Source of the DNA: Cytophagales bacterium
GTDB taxonomy: Bacteria > Bacteroidota > Bacteroidia > Cytophagales > 172606-1
Direction: 5' to 3'
Length of the DNA stretch: 64,000 nucleotides
NCBI GenBank assembly: GCA_030446715.1
Contig: JAUJMU010000005.1
Location: 391,709 to 455,708, forward strand
The notes beneath the pieces are model-generated. The model was given only the letters and a program-made list of their open reading frames with translations, was not told the DNA's origin and made no database searches. Every line of letters starts with the position of its first letter. Positions within the stretch are counted from its first letter, which is position 1. The translations under genes and the position numbers were made by a program. Positions 36,298 to 62,146 of the stretch are shown here, piece after piece.

Positions 36298-39200
36298 ATG
36301 CCTGTCTCTACTGCCACGCTGGCTGCTGATCTGTTTCCCACTGATGACCTGCTGGAAACCTTGCTCGATATATCGCTTACTGGTATCAATCTGCTCGGCC
36401 CACTCTACAACTCCTCGGGCGAGCTGGAGGATTTTGCCCTCCAGTACCTTAACCCCGCCGCCCAACACATGACGGGACTGCCCGAGCGACCCGGCGGCAC
36501 CCTCTGCACGCACTTTCCCCACGCGCGTACAGACGGCATCCTGGACTTCTACCGGCGCGTGTACGAAACCGGTGAGACCGGCCACCATGACTTCAGAAAC
36601 CGGGCCGGGGGATTGGATAACTACTTCCGCTCAGCAGCCCGGCGTAAAGGCCAGCGGCTCGTGGTCAGCTTCACCGACACCAGCGACCAGGACCGCCGCC
36701 CCCTGGAAGGGGCCCTGCGCGAAAGCGAGGCCGCCGGAAAAGCCGCCCGCGCGGAGGCGGAACGCCAGCGCGGGCGCTTCCACGAGGTGTTTGAACAAAC
36801 CCCGGCCAGCATCGTACTGCTGCGCGGGCCCGGGCACCGGGTCGAGTATCACAACGAAGCCTACCAGCAGTTGTTCCCCGGGCGGCAGATGCGGGGACGT
36901 ACCATCGCCGAAATCCAGCCCGACACTACCAAAAATGGCTTCGTAGCCTCTCTCGACGGCGTGTACCATACGGGCGAAACGTACTTCGGCCGGGAAGTGC
37001 AGCTGAACATCGACCAGCCGGACGGCACGCACAGGGAGATCTATTTTAATTTCACCTACCAGGCCTGCCGCGAAAATGACCAGATTACCGGCGTCTCCGT
37101 GTTTGGTTACGACGTGACCGAGCAGGTACTGGCCCGCCGGTTGACCGAAGCCTTGCAGGCTGAGGTGTTGGCCGCGGCCCGGCGCCAGATGGAAGAGCGG
37201 GCCACCTCCTACCAGGTGTTTGCCCAAACGCCGGCCGCCCTCTGCATTCAGCGCGGGCCCGAGCACCGCTATGAGTACGTCAACCCGGCGTATCAGGCAT
37301 TGTTTCCGGACCGCCGGTTTGTGGGCCGCACTGTGGTAGAGGCCCTGCCTGAAACTCTCGACGGCGGAATTGTGCCCCTGCTGGACCGGGTATACGGGAC
37401 GGGAGAGCCGTTTTTTGGCTTTGAGGTACCCCTTACCCTTCAGCCCACCGCGGCGGGAGAAATAGCCCGGACGGAGTACTACACGTTTACTTACCAAGCC
37501 TACCGCGAGAACGGGCAGATTGTGGGCATCTCCACCTTTGCCTACAACGTGACCCAGCAGGCCATGGCCCGCCAGGAGCGCGAGGCGCAGCAGCGAAATC
37601 TCCACGCCCTCTTTGAGCAGGCACCCAACGGAATTTGCATCTTCGTGGGTTCCGACCTGGTCTACGAGTTCCACAACCCCAGCTACCAGGCGCTGCTGCC
37701 CGGGCGCAAACTGCCGGGCCGGCCGCTGCTGGAAGTCATGCCCGAACTTAAGGGCACGGACGCGGAAAGACTGCTCCGGCGCGTGTACGAGACGGGGGAG
37801 ACCCAGCAGGAGCATGAATTGCCCGTTCCCCTGGCCCGGGCCGATGGCCAGGAGCTGGAGGAGCGCTACTTCCACATTGTCTACCAGGCCCGGCGCGACG
37901 AGCAGGGACAAGTCAACGGGATTCTGAGCTTTGTCGTGGAAGTTACCGGGCAGGCTCGGGCCAGAAAAGCCATTGAGGAAAGTGAAGCCCGTTTCAGATC
38001 GCTGGCCGAAAACTCTCCTGATGTGATCACCCGGCACGGAAAAGACTACCGGTATCTGTACGCCAGTCCCCGGATTGAAGAAGTAACAGGGCTGAAGGCC
38101 GAAGAGTTTACCGGCAAATCCTACCGGGAACTGGGGTTGCCGGAAACATTCTGCACGTTACTGGATGAGCACCTTGCCTATGTTTTTGCGCACCAGACCC
38201 TGCATACGCCGGAATATTGGGTGCCGGGGGGAAAAGGCTATTTTCTCCTGCGCATGGTACCCGAATGCAACCAGGCCGCAGAGGTGGTATCCGTGCTGGT
38301 GCTGTCCACCGATATAACGGAGCGAAAACGGGCGGAGGCTGCCTTGCGGGAATCAGAAGCACGTTTCCGCCTGATGGCCGATGCGGTGCCCCAGATTGTC
38401 TGGATTACCGATCCGGACGGACACACTGAGTTCTTCAACAAGCAGTGGACTCTCTATACCGGAGCACCTTTTGAGCCGATTACTGCTGCTGAGGTAGCCG
38501 CCAGCTTTGTGCATCCACAGGATGCAGCGCTAACCATGGAAAGGTTTGATAGTGCCCGGCAAGCGGGCAGCGCTTTTTCGGTTGAGTACCGCATCCGCTC
38601 CCTGACGGGCGAGTACCGGTGGTTTCTATTGAAGGCGGAGCCGTATCGCGACCAGGAAACCGGACAGATCAGCCGATGGTTCGGTGCTTCCATTGATATT
38701 GATGACCGCAAACGGGCAGAAGCTGCTTTACGCGACAGTGAGGAGCGCTTGCAAAAGGCCCTTTCCATTGAGACGGTTGGTGTAATTTTCTTTGATCTGG
38801 AAGGCAGAATCAACGATGCCAATGCCGCCTTTGAGAGCATGAGCGGCTACGCAAAGGCTGATCTTGAAAGTGGTAAGGTGCGCTGGGATGAGTTAACCCC
38901 ACCCGAGTTTATGGAAGCCACCCTGAAGTCCCGCAAAGAACTGCTAACCAAGGGTAAGAACACGCCCTACCAGAAGCAATACATGCGTCCGGATGGCTCC
39001 CGCTGGTGGGGTCTTTTCTCGGGCAAGCGGCTTAGTGAAACTGAATGCGTGGAATTTGTCCTCGATATTACTGAGGGCAAAGGAGCAGAAGAGGCCTTGC
39101 AGCAGTTATATCGGCAACTGGCCGGGGTAAATGCTGATCTTTCGGAGGCCAATCAACTGCTCACCTACATCAACCAGGATCTGGATAACTTTGTCTACAC

Positions 39201-52238: not shown

Positions 52239-54694
52239 TCAGACAGGTGATCCTTCCGTCTGCTGACTTTGCTGCTGAGCGGATTTTCTGGCTTTTTTTG
52301 TCTCGACGTACTGGTTCACGGCAGCGTAGATGTTGCCGTACTTTTTCTGGAGTGACCGCAGGTAATCGCGTTCTTCGGGCTTGGATGTGAGTACCGCATC
52401 CATCACCGGCGAAACCTCCATCAGGTATACTTTGGCGTAGTCGCCCTGCTTGATGAACAGCTCCCGGTAACCATCCGCGTCCCGCACCCGGATGGAGCGG
52501 ATGAGCTGTACTTCGTGATCGGTGAAACCCAGATGCCCGGCCAGCTTCGCAATTTCCGTCACGTCCGTGTGGTTGAGGATGATCTGCGTAGCCGCGTTGG
52601 CAAGGATGGCCGGGCCGATTCTCGAATCGACTACTTCCCGGATGCCCTGCGTGATGATGCACATGGCCCCGTTGTTCTTGCGCACCGTCCGGTACATGCC
52701 TTCCACAAATTCGCCCATCGAGTCCGAGAGCATGCTCCAGGCTTCATCCATGTAGAAGTACTTCCGCCGGGTGGGGTGCCTGCGGATCACGTCAAGGGCC
52801 AGTTCCGAAATCAGCAGGGAGATGACCGGGTAGAGCATCGGGTTCTTCTTGATCCTGGCCATGTCAAAGCAGATCAGCTTTTCGGCGCTCACCTCCTCGT
52901 GGTGCTCCGAGTTCAGCACGTCCCGGTACTTGCCCACCGCGTAGGGTTCAAGCACGATGGTAAACTCATTGAAATCAAAATTCCGCGACAGCCGTTCGTA
53001 CTCCTTGCTTTCCTGCTGCTCGAACAGCGACAGCCATTCGTAAAAGCCCGTAAGGGAGGGAGGCGGCATTTGCCCTTTCCCTTCCTGAACCAGTTTGTTA
53101 TAGTGGGAGAAGTAGTGGGGCAGGAGCTTGGTGAACACGGCCCGTTCCACCGGGGAGATCTCCCCCCTGGCACCCTTCCAGATAATCGAGAGCAGGGAAG
53201 TCAGGAAGTTGATTTTGTCCCCGTCCAGTACGTACAAACCCTCCTCATTTCTGTCGACCAGGAAGGGGTTCAGGTGCAAAGGCCGGTCCGGGTCGTACTC
53301 AAAGTAGCGGCCACCCAGCGCCGTCACCAGACTCAGGTACGTACCGCCCACGTCGATGATGATCTGGGTGTGCCCCATCTCGTAGCGCTGGAGCACGAAG
53401 TTGCCGATGGTGAAGCTCTTTCCCGAGCCGGAAGGTCCGATGGTGACCGAGTTCTGGTTGTTGAGATCCGTATTGAAAAGCTTAACCCGCAGCGGATTTC
53501 GGAACCGGTCGCAGAGCAGTTCATCCCCGCCGGTTACCTGGAGGTAGTTGGTGACGTAGTTCTGGTACACGGACGCGTTGTCACCCGTCATGAGCAGCGT
53601 GCGGTAATTATGGTAACTGTTGCCGGGGGCATTAGCCACAAAAAGATTGGCCGTATCCAGCGTTTCGACGGTGCATATGGTCGCGTTCATCTGCGAGAAG
53701 GCCCGGCGCACCTGATCGGCGTATCCCTGCTGCCCGTCTTCCTGCTCCTCCCAGACGATTACTGATACATTCACCCTGAGCGTATTCTTGTTCCAGGTTC
53801 TCACTTCGTGGGTGAACTCGGTGATCTCTTCGGCCTTCTTGTGGTTGTCCTGGGTAGAAAGAAAGTCCAGCATCCGGTTGCGCTTGTTTTCGGCATCCAG
53901 GTCCCTGAGCGTCTTTTCAGTATCGGGCACCGTGCAGGAAACCGAAAGCACGTGCGGGATCTGCAGGTAGTGCGTGAGCGGGTAGATGAACGGCGAGGCC
54001 ACTCCCGTCTCGTTCAGCACGGCCGGCTCAATGATTCCGCCCTGGTTGAGCATGGACAGCACGTGCAGCTTCTTTTCCCCGAGCACGGCGTAGTTGCCCC
54101 CAGCGTGAAAGGGACGGTGAAACGAATCGGGCGGCTGAAATCAAGGTTGAAGTACATCCGGTAGAGGTCAGACAGACCATTTTCGTCCAGCGGAGTAGTC
54201 CCGATGCCGGCCGCGGCCAGCATGGACGTGAACTCCCGGCCCAGGCGGCGAAGCTTCAGCATTCTTTCCTCAATGCCGGTGAAGGGGTTGCTCACCAGAA
54301 AGGCCTTTCCCCACGCAAAAAGCGTATTGACGGGGTTGGGTGCCGGCTGTTTTTCGTTGCCAACCGAAATAAACAGGAAGCTCCGGTGACGCAGCACCAG
54401 CCGGTTGTAGAAGTGGTTGATCATGCTGCGCTCAATGAAGGACTTATCGGTGTAGCCCACCCGGAAGGGATCAAAGTAGTAGCAGTCAAGCTTCTGCACG
54501 GTGGCTCCTACGGGCAGGATTTTGGTGGCACCGGTCAGCACTTCGTTCAGGTGCCCGTATGCTCCGGCCGGGGCCTTTTCCATTTCCAGCGGCTGCACCT
54601 GGTAGCCGACCGCTACCCGGCCGTCTTTGAACAGCAACTGCCCGTTTTCGATGGCGAAAACGGGCAAGAGATCGTTGATGGTTCTTTTTCTCAT
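52239..54694 (-). pseudogene. traG: TraG conjugation ATPase (VirB4-like), one frameshift
   Basis: Frame 1 (54694 to ~54110): MRKRTINDLLPVFAIENGQL through FSRPIRFTVPF. Frame 2 (to 52239): HAGGNYAVLGEKKLHVLSML, then Walker A GPSGSGKSFTIGNF, Walker B-like YFYMDEAWSML, and the Q/R motif region IITQGIREVVDS. Joined length ~815 residues, the size of TraG, which powers pilus assembly and transfer. The shift near 54105-54115 lies beside TTT and GGGGG runs; one added base restores the frame. Without TraG the transfer system would not work. Part of the traE-F-G-J-K-N-M operon. Confidence 0.85.
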
Positions 54695-55943: not shown

Positions 55944-56684
55944 TCAGGCAAACAGGAAAGCATCCCGCACTTTGGATAGTTTGTAGTTCAATTCCAGTCC
56001 TGCGATGTTCTGCAACTCCTCAGCCGTCAGAAATATCTTCTCCGGCTCGATGTACGCGGCCCTCAGTTTCAGGTAGTCAGGATGCAGGGTAATTCCTTTT
56101 TCTTCCCGGCAGAATTTGAAAAAGACCTTCAGGTTCTTGACCATGCTGGCGATGGTATTGGGATGAAAATCGTAACCTTCCGACAGGAACACCAGAAAGG
56201 AATTATGGACCTGCAGCGTGTAGGCCTCGATGTCCACCGGCTCCCGCTCCTTATGGTATTCCCGGAAATGATTCAGGGTACTGTTGTATTTTTTGAGCGT
56301 ATTGGGCTTGTAGCCGCGCTGCCTGAGCAGCACTACAAACTCCTCCAGCAGTTCGAGAAAGTTCTTCCTGGGGGCAGTGGTCTGAGGTGATTCGGGCAGC
56401 AGCTCCGATTTCAACATGGCCGGCGCAGGCACTATTCCCTTCTGCATGTAGTCCCGGTACGCCTTCACCGTTTTTTCGGCGAGTGTCTCCAGAAACGTCT
56501 GGGCATCCTGATAGCCTGGCAGTGAGCGGCGAAACTTTCCCTTGTCTGCATCCCAGTGCCTGGGCTCACACTTTTCCCCGGTGAAATACTTGAACTGATA
56601 ATTCTTGTAGTAGAAGTACAGGAATACGGGTGCCTTTCCTGAACGGTCTGTCTTCTCAATCAGCTGTTTGAATTGAACTTTCAT
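55944..56684 (-). pseudogene. Tyrosine recombinase (integrase), truncated before the catalytic domain
   Basis: 246 residues. Arm-binding domain at residues ~1-85 (FYYKNYQFKYFTGEKCEPRH), core-binding SAM-like domain at ~105-215 (FLELLEEFVVLLRQRGYKPN; SMVKNLKVFFKFCREEKGIT), then the linker EPEKIFLTAEELQNIAGLEL and KVRDAFLFA, where a TGA ends the frame. Intact relatives continue with CYTGLR-type sequence carrying the first catalytic Arg, then HxxR and Tyr. All catalytic residues are therefore missing. The element that used it cannot excise with this enzyme. The divergently controlled repressor lies just upstream. Confidence 0.82.
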
Positions 56685-56946: not shown

Positions 56947-57645
56947 TCAATCTACCGGCGCTTCCACTACCCTTACTACCTTCCAGATTCCCCGGATGTC
57001 CTTTGCCGGCACGGGCATACTGCCCGCCTCCGGATTGTCCGAGTGCAGCGTGAGCATATTCCTGGTGAGCAGGTCATTGTCCTTGATCCGCCGGATCACA
57101 AAGTAGTCGCGGTACATCACCGCGTAGATGCCACTCGACTGGTAGCACCAGTCATCCCTGTCAATGCAGACCGCCAGCACTTTTGCCCCGTGCACGAGCC
57201 TTGGGCTCATGCTGTTTCCCTCTACTTCCATTACCGCGGCACCGGGATAATCAGTTCCCTCAGTTGAGTAGACCTGGTATATATCCAGGTCTCCGTAGCC
57301 ACAATCACCGGCGTACCCTTTTACAAAGGACGCCTGTCCACGGAGTGACACGAAAGGATACGGGGTAAAGGGCAGTAACGCGCCTCCGGTTGCGGTATCT
57401 TCTCCAGATTCTTCTTTAAACATCCCTCCTGCCCCGCTCACCAGCCAGTTGAGATTGATCTGGGGATACTTTTCCAGCAGACCCTCCAGCGTGTCGTAAC
57501 TCGGCCTTGCCTTGCCATTCAGGATGTTGTAGATCTTGGTTGGTTTGTCACCTGCCTCCTTGGCCAGTTGATAAGGCGTGATCCCCAGCTCCCGGAGCAC
57601 TACTGCGAATCTTTCCCGAATGGTCTGGGTGGCCACCTCTTCCAT
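56947..57645 (-). CDS. CI/LexA-like repressor (HTH plus S24 peptidase-type domain)
   Basis: 232 residues. Cro/CI-type helix-turn-helix at ~5-65 (ITPYQLAKEAGDKPTKIYNI; LNGKARPSYDTLEGLL). The C-terminal S24 dimerisation/self-cleavage domain at ~120-225 has the nucleophile Ser145 in EVEGNSMSPRLVHGA. The expected general-base lysine position reads VIRRI (Arg185-Arg186), so self-cleavage may be lost or slow. In phages such proteins hold the lytic genes off and are inactivated after DNA damage. Transcribed away from the rep-like genes, with an inverted-repeat operator between. Ends at the strong terminator. Confidence 0.88.
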   Translation of the reverse strand: MEEVATQTIRERFAVVLRELGITPYQLAKEAGDKPTKIYNILNGKARPSYDTLEGLLEKYPQINLNWLVSGAGGMFKEESGEDTATGGALLPFTPYPFVSLRGQASFVKGYAGDCGYGDLDIYQVYSTEGTDYPGAAVMEVEGNSMSPRLVHGAKVLAVCIDRDDWCYQSSGIYAVMYRDYFVIRRIKDNDLLTRNMLTLHSDNPEAGSMPVPAKDIRGIWKVVRVVEAPVD

Positions 57646-57681
57646 TTGCTTAAAAGGATAAAATGGTTATCTTGCTCATTA

Positions 57682-57722
57682 TACAATAAGTATTTTACAA
57701 ATAAGCAATAATAATTGTAAAA
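57682..57722. promoter_or_regulatory. Inverted-repeat operator in the divergent repressor/replication promoter
   Basis: Within the 99-base divergent spacer (57646-57744), TTTTACAA (57693-57700) and TTGTAAAA (57715-57722) form perfect arms 14 bases apart. An outer pair TACAAT (57682-57687) and ATTGTA (57714-57719) overlaps them. This A/T-rich dyad is the natural site for the adjacent CI-like repressor. Confidence 0.65.
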
Positions 57723-57744
57723 ACAGGTAAAGTATAGTAAAGAG

Positions 57745-58026
57745 ATGGCAAAAGTAACACAAAACACTTTAAAAGCAAGGGTGAAAGAACTCATTAATCT
57801 TTTACCAGGGCGCTACGGATATGCAACAAAGGTTGTGGAGAGATTAGCGCGGAAAGGGGTGGCCGTAAAGCTTAGTACGGTCTATCAGGTGGCAGCCGGC
57901 AATATGCAGGACGAGGATATCCTGGGTGAACTGATCCTGCTGGTGGATGACTATAAGCGGAAGCAGCAGGAACTGGAAAGTAAAATGGAGGAAACACTTA
58001 ACCAGCACAAGGTATGCAGCGCGTAG
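57745..58026 (+). CDS. Small helical regulator-like protein
   Basis: 93 residues (MAKVTQNTLKARVKELINLL; RYGYATKVVERLARKGVAVK; LSTVYQVAAGNMQDEDILGE). The central part could be a helix-turn-helix with a TVYQVAAG recognition-like helix, as in Cro-like partners of CI repressors. First gene rightward of the operator. It overlaps the next gene by 13 bases. The regulator role is inference from context. Confidence 0.6.
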   Translation: MAKVTQNTLKARVKELINLLPGRYGYATKVVERLARKGVAVKLSTVYQVAAGNMQDEDILGELILLVDDYKRKQQELESKMEETLNQHKVCSA

Positions 58027-58286
58027 TCATCATTCCCGAAACGGAATTTTCCAGTCTGGTAGCCCGGCTGGAAAAACTGGAAGCCCAGGTGCAGGCAAGT
58101 ACCGCTCCCAAAGAGGACCAGGTTTACACGGTACGGGAGGCAGCGGACCTGCTCAACATGACCACCGAAGGCGTACGGGTGGCCCGCCGGCACAAGCGGC
58201 TGCGGGGCTTCAAAATCAACGAAAAGTGCTGGGGCTTCCACCAGTCGGAAATCGACCGGTACAAAAACCGCTACAAGCGCTTATGA
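58014..58286 (+). CDS. MerR/excisionase-like helix-turn-helix protein
   Basis: 90 residues. A short coiled-coil head (FSSLVARLEKLEAQVQA), then YTVREAADLLNMTTEGVRVA, RRHKRLRGFKINEKCWGFHQ and SEIDRYKNRYK: the HTH_17/excisionase winged fold used by phage excisionases and small regulators. Overlaps its neighbours by 13 bases upstream and 4 bases downstream (ATGA), so it is translationally coupled to the initiator gene. Confidence 0.75.
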   Translation: MQRVVIIPETEFSSLVARLEKLEAQVQASTAPKEDQVYTVREAADLLNMTTEGVRVARRHKRLRGFKINEKCWGFHQSEIDRYKNRYKRL

Positions 58287-59260
58287 ACAGGCAGGCCCAG
58301 TCCGTCAATTACATCCGGCACCTGTCAGCAGTTCTGGACAAATTGGCTGCCGACGGCCGGTGTACCCCGCAGCACATCAGCCTGTACATCATGCTGTTCC
58401 ACCAGTGGAACGGGCAGCACTTCCGGGGACGGCTGAAGATCTTCCGGGCCGAGCTGATGGAGGAGAGTAAAATCGGAAACAAGAACACCTACACCAACTG
58501 CCTGAAGAACCTGCACGAATGGGGCTACCTGCAGTACTTTCCGACGGGGAGTAAATACCGGGCCAGCGAAGTGACGATTACGGATTTCACCGGTAGCGAA
58601 GCTGGTAATGGTACTGATAACGGTAGCGGTACCTGTCATAGCGCCACCGTTATCATATCCGGTAATGGTGCTGATAACGGTAATGATAAGGGTAGCGATA
58701 ACGGTGCTGATAATGGTAGTGGTACCACTTTTATAAATGTTACTAAACCTGTTCAAACAAATCCAAACGTTTCAAACGGGTTATATACCCCCACCGAAAA
58801 AGTTGAAGAAGGTTTTCCCGGAAAGGATTACCCGGCAACAGGCAATAGAAATTCTTCAGATGCCGGGGAGCCGGCCGCAGCAAAAAAGAAAAAAGTTGCG
58901 CCAAAAAAGAAAGAAGCCAGCCCTGACCTGCTCTTTGCGGAATCCCCCTACGCAGACAAGACGCTGTTCAGGCATGCCTTTACCGGAACAGAATACGAAA
59001 CGGCAAATCTGGATTACTACCACGAAGTCATCAGCAACTGGAGCCGGAGCAAGGCAGCCCGCAAGAAAGACTGGATTGCAATGGCCAAAAACTGGATGCT
59101 CAACGATTTCCGCGAAGGCAAACTACTGACAACCGAATCCGCCACCGGCTATGGAAAAACAGGCTCAGATTACCGGAAAACCGAAAGAGGAGGCGTTGAC
59201 CTTAACGCTCTCTTCGCCCTCATTGATTACGCTCATTCTCCAAAGCAGTCAGAATCCTGA
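58283..59260 (+). CDS. Replication-initiator-like protein with origin-like repeats inside the gene
   Basis: 325 residues from ATG 58283 (ATGA overlap with the previous stop). Residues ~1-105 look like a winged helix-turn-helix (HISLYIMLFHQWNGQHFRGR; TNCLKNLHEWGYLQYFP). Residues ~107-150 are low-complexity Asn/Gly/Asp/Ser, encoded by iteron-like DNA repeats. Residues ~150-205 are a linker encoded by A/T-rich DNA, then Lys-rich (AAAKKKKVAPKKKE). Residues ~210-300 form a C-terminal domain (YYHEVISNWSRSKAARKKDW; IAMAKNWMLNDFREGKLL) resembling replication modules of Bacteroidota prophages. This mirrors phage lambda O, whose gene contains the origin. Function inferred. Confidence 0.7.
   Translation: MNRQAQSVNYIRHLSAVLDKLAADGRCTPQHISLYIMLFHQWNGQHFRGRLKIFRAELMEESKIGNKNTYTNCLKNLHEWGYLQYFPTGSKYRASEVTITDFTGSEAGNGTDNGSGTCHSATVIISGNGADNGNDKGSDNGADNGSGTTFINVTKPVQTNPNVSNGLYTPTEKVEEGFPGKDYPATGNRNSSDAGEPAAAKKKKVAPKKKEASPDLLFAESPYADKTLFRHAFTGTEYETANLDYYHEVISNWSRSKAARKKDWIAMAKNWMLNDFREGKLLTTESATGYGKTGSDYRKTERGGVDLNALFALIDYAHSPKQSES
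58604..58800 (+). repeat. Iteron-like repeats and A/T-rich segment, possible origin
   Basis: From 58604 to 58733 the unit GATAACGGT or near variants (GATAAGGGT, GATAATGGT) occurs at least five times, with one inverted copy (ACCGTTATC near 58647). Larger blocks GGTAATGGT...GGTACC repeat as well. An A/T-rich stretch follows (58733-58800, with TTTTATAAATGTTACTAAAC). Iterons next to an A/T-rich unwinding region inside an initiator gene is the lambda-type origin layout. Confidence 0.55.
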
Positions 59261-59927
59261 GCTTGCTCTGGAGTTGATTGAACGTCAATCCCTGATGACG
59301 ACTGCCGTGGCCCTGGCCACCGGGGAGCAGCTTTCCCTGCTGGCAAAAGCAGACAAAAAGGCGCTGCTCAAGGCCCTTTCTGCGCTGATTACGCAGCTGC
59401 GCCAGTCGCTGAATGTAGGCAAGAATCTGGATACGCTGCAGGTATACGAATGCGCCTCCCTGCTGGCCGAAAAGTACTGGTACCTCCGGCTGGAGGAATT
59501 TTTATACGTGTTCAAACAGGCCAAACTCGGTAAGTACGGCAAAATCTATGACCGGCTGGACGTGCAGGTGATTTCCGGGTGGCTGCACGCCTACGACACC
59601 GGCGAACGGCTGGTAGAACTCCAGCGGCAGCGGCAGGCTCAGCCGCCGGAAGCGGATGGGAAACTGCCGCTGGAGGAAGTGCACCGGTGCTACCAAAGGC
59701 TGCTGGCGGGGGAAAGGTCTGATACATCGGCTACTTCGAGTGAGTATTACCAACCGGCGGAAACCCGGCAGGAACGGGAGGCTGAGTACTATAAATTCAG
59801 GCTGGATTACTGCAGGAGACGCCGCGCTGAAAAGGAAACTACAGATCCAGCAGGTGCCGCCGAAGGTTCCCTCCCAAAACCCGACAGAGATGATCTGGAA
59901 AATCATGATAAAATGCCTGAGAATTAG
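59151..59927 (+). CDS. Bacteroidota phage-type protein, likely replication accessory
   Basis: 258 residues, overlapping the initiator gene by 110 bases in another frame. The N-terminus is helical (LIERQSLMTTAVALATGEQL). The core VYECASLLAEKYWYLRLEEF, LYVFKQAKLGKYGKIYDRLD and VISGWLHAYDTGERLVELQR is a conserved pattern I associate with a DUF6633-like family beside phage replication genes. The C-terminus is charged and low-complexity. Function unknown; a helicase-loading or initiator-accessory role is possible. Confidence 0.65.
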   Translation: MEKQAQITGKPKEEALTLTLSSPSLITLILQSSQNPELALELIERQSLMTTAVALATGEQLSLLAKADKKALLKALSALITQLRQSLNVGKNLDTLQVYECASLLAEKYWYLRLEEFLYVFKQAKLGKYGKIYDRLDVQVISGWLHAYDTGERLVELQRQRQAQPPEADGKLPLEEVHRCYQRLLAGERSDTSATSSEYYQPAETRQEREAEYYKFRLDYCRRRRAEKETTDPAGAAEGSLPKPDRDDLENHDKMPEN

Positions 59928-60959: not shown

Positions 60960-62146
60960 ATGAGCAAAGAGGAATATTTAGCGCTAGCGGCAGAACGATA
61001 TGAGGCACTGGAAGGGCTGAAAAAGCATGAGGATTTTTACAGCTACGAAGCCGAATTTGACAAGATATGGACCGCTCTGGGACGGCAGATACTGGAAAAT
61101 ACGGTGAGTCAGGTACCTAAAAATCATCGAAAAAAAACATCATCCGGACCCGGTACGGAAAGATAGCCGTGGCTAAAACGCATGGTTTCAGTCTTCCGGT
61201 GCTGGGCTCAAGGACCAGTCCATATCTGCAAAGCAAACTGGTATTATTGGGTTGTGAGCAGGTGTTTGGTCAGGTACCGGCAATGGTCGAGTCCCTGTTA
61301 GGTATCAAGGTGAGTCAAAGTCAGGTTTACCGGACTTGTCAAATAGCTGCTTTTGTAACGGATGAAGCAGTCGTGGATGCTCCATCTGTTGAGCTTGGCC
61401 GGCAGTTAACTGCTGCCGGGCAGACCGTATATGGAATGGTGGATGGGAGTATGCTCCTGACTCAGGAAGGATGGCAGGAAACCAAAGTAGGCCGGGTGTT
61501 TGCGGCTCAGGCTGTTACTGTTGATGAGCCGCAGCCACCAGCATGGGAGTTAAGTCCGTCCGAGTACGTAGCACACCGGGGACATTACCGGGAATTCACC
61601 CGAAAGTTTGAGCAATTATTTCCCCCGGCTTCCGCCTGCCGGAAAGTATTGGTGAGTGATGGAGCGGCCTGGATTGGCAACTGGCTCCGGGAAACCTACC
61701 CGGATGCAGTACATATTTTAGACTACTACCATTTAAAAGAGAAATTGTCTGCTGCTGCCCAAAGTGTCTCTGATTCCGGGCACTGGCTCCGGGAGCAGGA
61801 AGAGAGCCTGTTTGAAGGCCGGCAGCAGGCAGTAGAGAAAGCCGTACAGGATTTGCCACACCTGGATGCTGCCAGCAAACAGCAATTGCTTGAATACCTG
61901 AAAAACAACCGCTACCGTACCCGTTATGACCTCTACCACAAAGAAGGACTCATGATTGGCAGTGGTCCCGTTGAAGCAGCCCATCGAACTGTATTACAGG
62001 TGAGAATGAAAAGAAGCGGACAGCGTTGGTCTGAGCCTGGCTGTGACAAGATGATTTTGCTGCGGACTGCTTACCGGAGTGGAAAATTTGACCTCATCAC
62101 TGACATCTTCCGACAGGATGAAGCCTTCCGCCAGATGGCTGCGTAA
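60960..62146 (+). CDS. ISKra4-family transposase, likely made by -1 frameshifting
   Basis: First frame 60960-61166 (68 residues: EEYLALAAERYEALEGLKKH; EAEFDKIWTALGRQIL) is the helical N-terminal domain. The -1 frame enters at 61130-61136 and reads KNIIRTRYGKIAVAKTHGFS, then the catalytic part to 62146: QTVYGMVDGSMLLTQEGWQE (first Asp), RKVLVSDGAAWIGNWLRETY (second Asp), DYYHLKEKLS, and SGPVEAAHRTVLQVRMK (Glu). Joined length ~395 residues. The site A AAA AAA in phase is a standard IS frameshift signal. A GTG at 61169 could also start a short form. The 3' part is intact. Confidence 0.85.
61130..61136 (+). promoter_or_regulatory. Slippery heptamer A AAA AAA for -1 frameshifting
   Basis: Zero-frame codons CGA AAA AAA ACA; a -1 slip gives AAA AAA AAC and opens the transposase frame, while the zero frame ends 30 bases later. 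A short TCCG/CGGA stem lies 8 bases downstream. Such sites control transposase levels in many two-frame IS elements. Confidence 0.65.

Follow-up and report, generated by a model that had tools for sequence, protein, structure and literature searches.

The locus and the protein it encodes

The window (here, the entire 64-kb stretch of DNA that was analysed) contains a compact block in which a CI-like repressor gene and a short series of genes diverge from an A/T-rich intergenic region (Table 1). The repressor matches PHROG 4, a family of transcriptional repressors (E 2.8e-22). The intergenic region, which may act as an operator, contains the 50 bp of lowest stability between 56.9 and 60 kb, starting at 57675. 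Two small genes, one encoding 93 amino acids and one encoding an HTH_17-like protein, separate this divergent promoter region from the gene that is the subject here, whose ATG overlaps the stop codon of the HTH_17 gene. In related loci, an HTH_17-type gene adjoins the initiator (L062) or lies near it (L072); CI-like genes are near the initiator in both.

Table 1. Positions of the features discussed, numbered within the window; functions are predictions
Feature	Position	Strand	Basis or detail
Tyrosine integrase, arm-binding and SAM-like domains, without catalytic domain	55944-56684	-	
CI-like repressor (helix-turn-helix and S24 peptidase-type domain)	56947-57645	-	Pfam HTH_3, Peptidase_S24
A/T-rich divergent intergenic region, candidate operator, 99 bp	57646-57744		Inverted repeat 57693-57703/57712-57722
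93-aa ORF, no family	57745-58026	+	
HTH_17/excisionase-like small DNA-binding protein	58014-58286	+	PF12728, E 6.6e-7
Probable replisome organiser (lambda-O-like initiator), 325 aa	58283-59260	+	Homologs, fold, gene context
N-terminal winged-helix domain, about residues 4-105, DNA binding predicted	58292-58597	+	AlphaFold2, VIA-align
Predicted disordered linker, encoded by putative origin DNA	58598-58897	+	pLDDT <50 at residues 106-193
Putative iteron array	58604-58724		GATAANGGT units at 58616, 58646 (inverted), 58673, 58685, 58697, 58709
A/T-rich putative unwinding tract	58728-58800		AAAC at 58745, 58755, 58765, 58774; position kept in homologs
C-terminal domain, about residues 210-287	58910-59143	+	Folded in AlphaFold2 model
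DUF6633-like protein in helicase-loader slot, overlapping the initiator	59151-59927	+	DUF6633, E 1.2e-4

The sequence-only reading had described the block as a lambda-type immunity and replication module. The CI-like S24 gene agrees with this description, which is otherwise only partly borne out. TraN/K/J/G-like genes lie beside the module, and these tra genes and a truncated integrase are all that was identified next to it, so that the element may be something other than a phage. The integrase is called truncated because it has no catalytic domain and lies only about 350 bp from the next ORF of the tra region. This implies that the element may be decayed and that the copy in the window may no longer be mobile.

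Two further ORFs in the surroundings deserve mention. A TraG/VirB4-like conjugation ATPase (52239-54694, minus strand) is split into overlapping frames at 52239-54086 and 54014-54694, both matching TIGR03783; the split reflects a frameshift, either genuine or introduced by the assembly. Downstream of the module, on the plus strand (61169-62146), lies an ORF related to UPF0236/ISL3-like transposases, with scores below the Pfam cutoffs.

The protein itself was modelled with AlphaFold2 from an alignment of 23 sequences. Its N-terminal domain has pLDDT values mostly above 90, its C-terminal domain is also folded in the model (at about residues 210-285), and the intervening linker, predicted to be disordered, coincides with the repeats and the A/T-rich tract in the DNA. 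This bears out what had been expected from the sequence: an N-terminal winged helix, a separate C-terminal domain and, between them, a low-complexity linker encoded by the repeats.

No Pfam family covers the window protein or any of 29 aligned homologs, and these same proteins match neither the lambda O model nor the RepA_N domain in Pfam. A weak match connects the window protein to PHROG 186, a DnaD-like loader family (E 0.0039). A sequence search of the PDB returned no relatives, and Foldseek against the PDB gave no match with E below 0.001. VIA-align was then used as a second look at the fold, with a query that effectively comprised residues 9-113 only. Here, the N-terminal domain resembles those of RepA_N-type proteins (4pql, likewise a plasmid RepA, Z 9.5; 4pt7, 9.0; 5kbj, 8.1; 4ro3, 8.1) and of the Geobacillus primosomal DnaB (5wtn, Z 8.0); the RepA_N-type matches, at Z 8 to 9.5 over 86-95 residues, are tied with those to TFIIE, PerR/Fur and other winged helices. 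The entries 4PT7 and 5KBJ are staphylococcal plasmid RepA proteins, and 4RO3 is the RepA of PLE (PMC7145576).

Repeats and an unstable tract within the gene

The middle of the gene carries six GATAANGGT units (with one variable base), of which one is inverted and the last four follow one another at intervals of exactly 12 nt. A related motif, GGTARYGGT, occurs at 58604, 58622, 58661 and 58715. The exact sequence GATAACGGT is found four times in the 64-kb window, always within 58616-58705 and once inverted (58646), where shuffles lead one to expect 0.18 copies; none of 100 shuffles reached four. The double unit GATAANGGTNNNGATAANGGT has no second place in the 6.4-Mb genome. Further, the gene holds 128 direct-repeat pairs, against 43.6 +/- 12.4 when synonymous codons are shuffled, and not one of 60 such shuffles was as high. 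Repeats of this kind may be tolerated in a coding sequence because the peptide that they encode is only a linker, predicted to be disordered. The inverted unit encodes T-V-I-I.

Behind the repeats, the DNA becomes easy to melt. Within the gene, stability is lowest over the 50 bp that start at 58709, which rank among the least stable 0.6% of the window. The A/T-rich tract is 66% A+T, against 44-48% in the parts that encode the domains, and its AAAC motifs are spaced 10, 10 and 9 nt apart in three codon phases. Thus, iteron-like repeats followed by an A/T-rich tract in mid-gene, as first noticed from the sequence alone, hold up under calculation.

Homologs, their arrays and their partners

Searching with the single protein gave no matches in either genome contigs or viral contigs. 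The broad alignment (A1) was too divergent for scanning; narrower alignments succeeded. Across the order, 72 of 390 genomes have a match, in some cases to the N-domain or the C-domain only. Relatives with names, found by profile search, are mostly from Hymenobacter. On viral contigs, searching with the C-domain brought up at least 554 stretches that encode relatives. Homologs match PHROG families of unknown function; three of these (15768, 28809 and 23776) match the C-domain part.

In nearly all full-length homologs an array stands just behind the N-domain, with a unit whose sequence differs from homolog to homolog: Hymenobacter has inverted pairs of the TGCCCCCGGT type, L010 has ACAAGTASTG, L026 has TGTACA spaced at 12 nt, and the Polaribacter phage Freya_1 has GATAATAGTAGT. 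In the Hymenobacter arrays (for example, the linkers of L091 and L041), half-sites alternate in orientation with spacings of 14 and 20-22 nt; the period of about 34-35 nt makes these evenly spaced dyads.

To separate DNA from peptide, the linkers of homologs were compared with shuffles of their synonymous codons, with genes from the same loci as controls. At p<=0.01, repeats exceed the shuffles in 79% of the linkers from genomes and 81% of those from viral contigs, against 2% and 5% of the control genes. The median z of the repeats is 8.2 in genomes and 4.6 in viral contigs, against about 0.4 in the controls, no member of which exceeds 5. Copies fall into two or more classes of reading frame and orientation in 42 of 44 dereplicated homologs. 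The peptides therefore differ while the signal sits in the DNA, and the repeats are conserved as DNA. In ten of the 44, copy number misses p<0.05 and an array is not demonstrable; L015, L011, L020, L037, the gene of a Marivirga plasmid and the same-genus L005 are among these. Conservation of the repeats had been set beforehand as one test that could overturn the original reading, and most homologs have both an array and an unstable tract at the same position.

The sequence of the array follows the N-domain. Array similarity correlates with N-domain distance (rho 0.57), and a partial rho of 0.35 is left when C-domain distance is held constant, where the best of 500 permutations gave 0.15; shared ancestry and close linkage may inflate these values.

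The unstable tract is conserved in position. In 40 of the 44 homologs, against 13 expected, the 50-bp stretch of lowest stability in the gene comes after the repeats, 60-330 nt from the start of the linker. In the bacterial set, 60 nt of the tract hold on average 3.59 AAAC on the coding strand, where shuffling of synonymous codons leaves 2.41; for control genes the figures are 1.73 against 1.57, and the reverse word, GTTT, stands at 1.23. The AAAC clusters cover at least two codon phases in 38 of the 44. In Freya_1 (L075), the repeats are followed at 37149-37193 by six AAAC motifs at intervals of exactly 8 nt, which places them in all three codon phases; in Hymenobacter rubidus the spacings are 10, 10, 10 and then 18 nt. 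Such spacing hints at a phased single-strand element. In the viral set, which is more distant, the enrichment is hardly seen (2.33 against 2.07), and the motif is therefore no rule for the whole C-domain family.

Freya_1, an isolated phage, merits closer attention. Its gp55, annotated as a "transcriptional regulator", has an N-domain 39% identical to that of the window protein and, in the same place, 12-nt repeats and an AAAC tract. Its C-domain, however, is unrelated to that of the window; it matches PHROGs 391 and 277, which are O-like and replisome-organiser families, and provides the sole sequence tie to lambda-O-like families. A DnaC-like helicase loader is encoded next. The converse arrangement is seen in L002, L025 and L034, where the C-domain of the window accompanies a different or barely matching N-domain and an array of its own. 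Together, these cases show that one module, the N-domain with its putative origin, and another, the C-domain with its loader, can be exchanged. A comparable exchange is known from a chimera of pPR9 and pSK41 (PMC5703833).

A homolog is also encoded on a circular 25-kb Marivirga plasmid, where no recognised initiator was found among ten other of its larger predicted proteins. GC skew had been proposed as a check. In Freya_1 and in this plasmid, detrended minima are seen some 0.8-1 kb away from the gene, in a weak signal that gene strand confounds.

What follows the initiator goes with the type of its C-domain. Among the relatives found by profile, 21 of the 23 that share the C-domain type of the window have a DUF6633-like gene next, while bacterial relatives with the L010-type C-domain have a DnaC-like gene in this slot. 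Two viral relatives with the L010-type C-domain and a DUF6633-like neighbour are exceptions (L124, by profile; L114, by a shared PHROG). From this covariation it may be that the C-domain touches the helicase-loader partner. In viral relatives the slot is occupied by IstB/DnaC-type ATPases, a G39P-type loader (in one relative), DnaB helicases or a primase-helicase. Thus, a helicase loader or a helicase adjoins the initiator in relatives, and the DUF6633-like protein that holds the slot in the window is predicted from its position to load or recruit a helicase. Its match to DUF6633 misses the Pfam cutoff, its gene is listed with the first ATG as start codon (translation may begin further downstream), and its AlphaFold2 model, with a mean pLDDT of 49, was too poor for a fold search.

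A probable origin within its own initiator gene

These observations make it highly likely that the gene encodes a replisome organiser and carries its own replication origin, as known systems do: the middle of the gene very probably holds the repeats and the easily melted tract where the encoded protein starts replication. The same design seems to recur in hundreds of related phages and elements.

The mechanism proposed is as follows. When repression by the divergent CI-like gene is lifted, a short operon would be transcribed. The N-terminal winged-helix domain of the initiator would bind the iterons within its own gene; such binding is suggested by the conserved place of the repeats and by the way their sequence follows the N-domain. 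The loaded nucleoprotein complex would then open the A/T-rich tract, whose position and low stability are matters of observation, and the AAAC motifs may mark contacts with the single strand. The C-domain, together with the partner from the overlapping next gene, would recruit the DnaB helicase of the host, and the excised element would enter theta replication. This step is proposed because the next gene in relatives encodes either DnaB itself or a loader of the DnaC-like or G39P type.

The repeats might, of course, have nothing to do with replication. Disordered low-complexity linkers often grow by slippage, and a D-N-G linker enlarged by tandem duplication would leave DNA repeats as a by-product. 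The linker is indeed of low complexity and predicted to be disordered, and the last four units, spaced at 12 nt, share one reading frame. However, in-frame slippage does not explain why the same DNA word is kept across differing peptides. The repeats exceed those in synonymous shuffles while control genes do not, one unit is inverted and reads T-V-I-I, 42 of 44 homologs use several frames or orientations, and the array keeps a fixed position between two domains. On the shuffles, the control genes and the frame and orientation classes, this neutral, protein-level explanation was rejected; we hold it to be very unlikely.

It is highly improbable, for other reasons, that the protein binds the repeats solely for autoregulation or copy control, with an origin elsewhere in the element. 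Many iteron initiators do autoregulate as well. In the phage SPP1, a second origin is located outside gene 38 (PMC6316719). Yet the repeats here are inside the gene and away from the promoter, the least stable DNA of the gene follows them at a fixed place, loader or helicase genes come next, and the genome has no second array. That several DNA-binding proteins are encoded next door raises the further thought that the array serves another protein of the element, for instance the CI-like repressor, the product of the HTH_17 gene, or a protein of partition or integration. Against this, the array follows the N-domain of the very gene in which it lies, and Freya_1, the plasmid and viral contigs keep an array without the same neighbours, so that such an assignment is extremely improbable.

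An origin inside its initiator gene is not, of course, without precedent. Ori-lambda lies inside gene O; lambda O has, as is predicted for the window protein, an N-terminal DNA-binding domain, a flexible linker region and a C-terminal domain that binds a partner, the repeats within the gene are followed by A/T-rich DNA, and the next gene delivers the helicase (PMC6022878). The family described here differs in its iterons, in a next gene that is DUF6633-like or DnaC-like, and in its Bacteroidota hosts. In pSK41, the Rep boxes occupy the centre of rep, where they encode the linker, and Rep with an internal deletion in the linker is still active in trans (PMC5703833). RepA_N initiators (Rep of pSK41 and pTZ2162, RepA of the V. 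cholerae PLE) may resemble the window protein in the fold of the N-domain, which other winged helices match equally well, and pSK41 resembles it in its in-gene boxes; they differ in that the window protein has no RepA_N match in Pfam and belongs to a repressor-linked operon with a partner gene. Last, oriL of SPP1 lies inside gene 38, with direct repeats and an A/T-rich DUE within the gene of the origin-binding protein (PMC6316719). The loader and the helicase of SPP1 are gp39 and gp40, and one viral relative of the family has a G39P-type loader after its initiator. SPP1 itself is lytic, infects Bacillus and has a second origin; the likeness to gp38 is one of anatomy rather than of demonstrated sequence relation.

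The label "lambda-O-like" thus survives in part. The anatomy is that of lambda O, and the view that the window protein works like lambda O is supported by this analogy; the Pfam model of lambda O does not match, the N-domain by its fold recalls RepA_N initiators and primosomal DnaB among other winged helices, and the sequence links to lambda-O-like families run only through the C-domain of Freya_1. With repeats and an A/T tract between two folded domains, the gene has the layout of intragenic-origin replisome organisers. As its sequence matches neither the lambda O nor the RepA_N family, the initiator is filed under this functional kind and under neither family; its kind is known, its own family undescribed. 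A literature search, with subscription journals outside its coverage, found nothing on such origins in Bacteroidota.

Few origins have been characterised in the phages and integrative elements of Bacteroidota. The family predicts where the origin lies in many of them, suggests a function for PHROGs 15768, 28809 and 23776, and offers in the DUF6633-like protein a candidate for a new helicase loader. Its short, self-contained pieces are candidate replication modules for Bacteroidota, and its natural series of initiator and iteron pairs could help to reveal how a winged-helix domain selects its site. A more general rule can be offered tentatively, as a possibility that we consider rather doubtful. 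Here, an exchangeable winged-helix domain would recognise the iterons, and the unwinding tract behind them, with AAAC at intervals of about 8-10 nt (in Hymenobacter as long as about 15 nt), would act as a ladder for single-strand loading. In one branch, the DUF6633-like protein would be a helicase loader with no relation to those of the DnaC, lambda P and G39P types.

Two minor observations concern relatives of other build. In L059, L060 and L067, the initiator and a DnaC-like loader have an integrase or mobilisation-type protein as neighbour, and efflux-like genes lie close by; with gene names assigned by eye, these may be compact integrative elements that replicate by the initiator module. 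In L003, L004 and L102-L104, which come from several genomes, stand-alone winged-helix proteins of about 95-115 amino acids are related to the N-domain and have neither linker nor C-domain.
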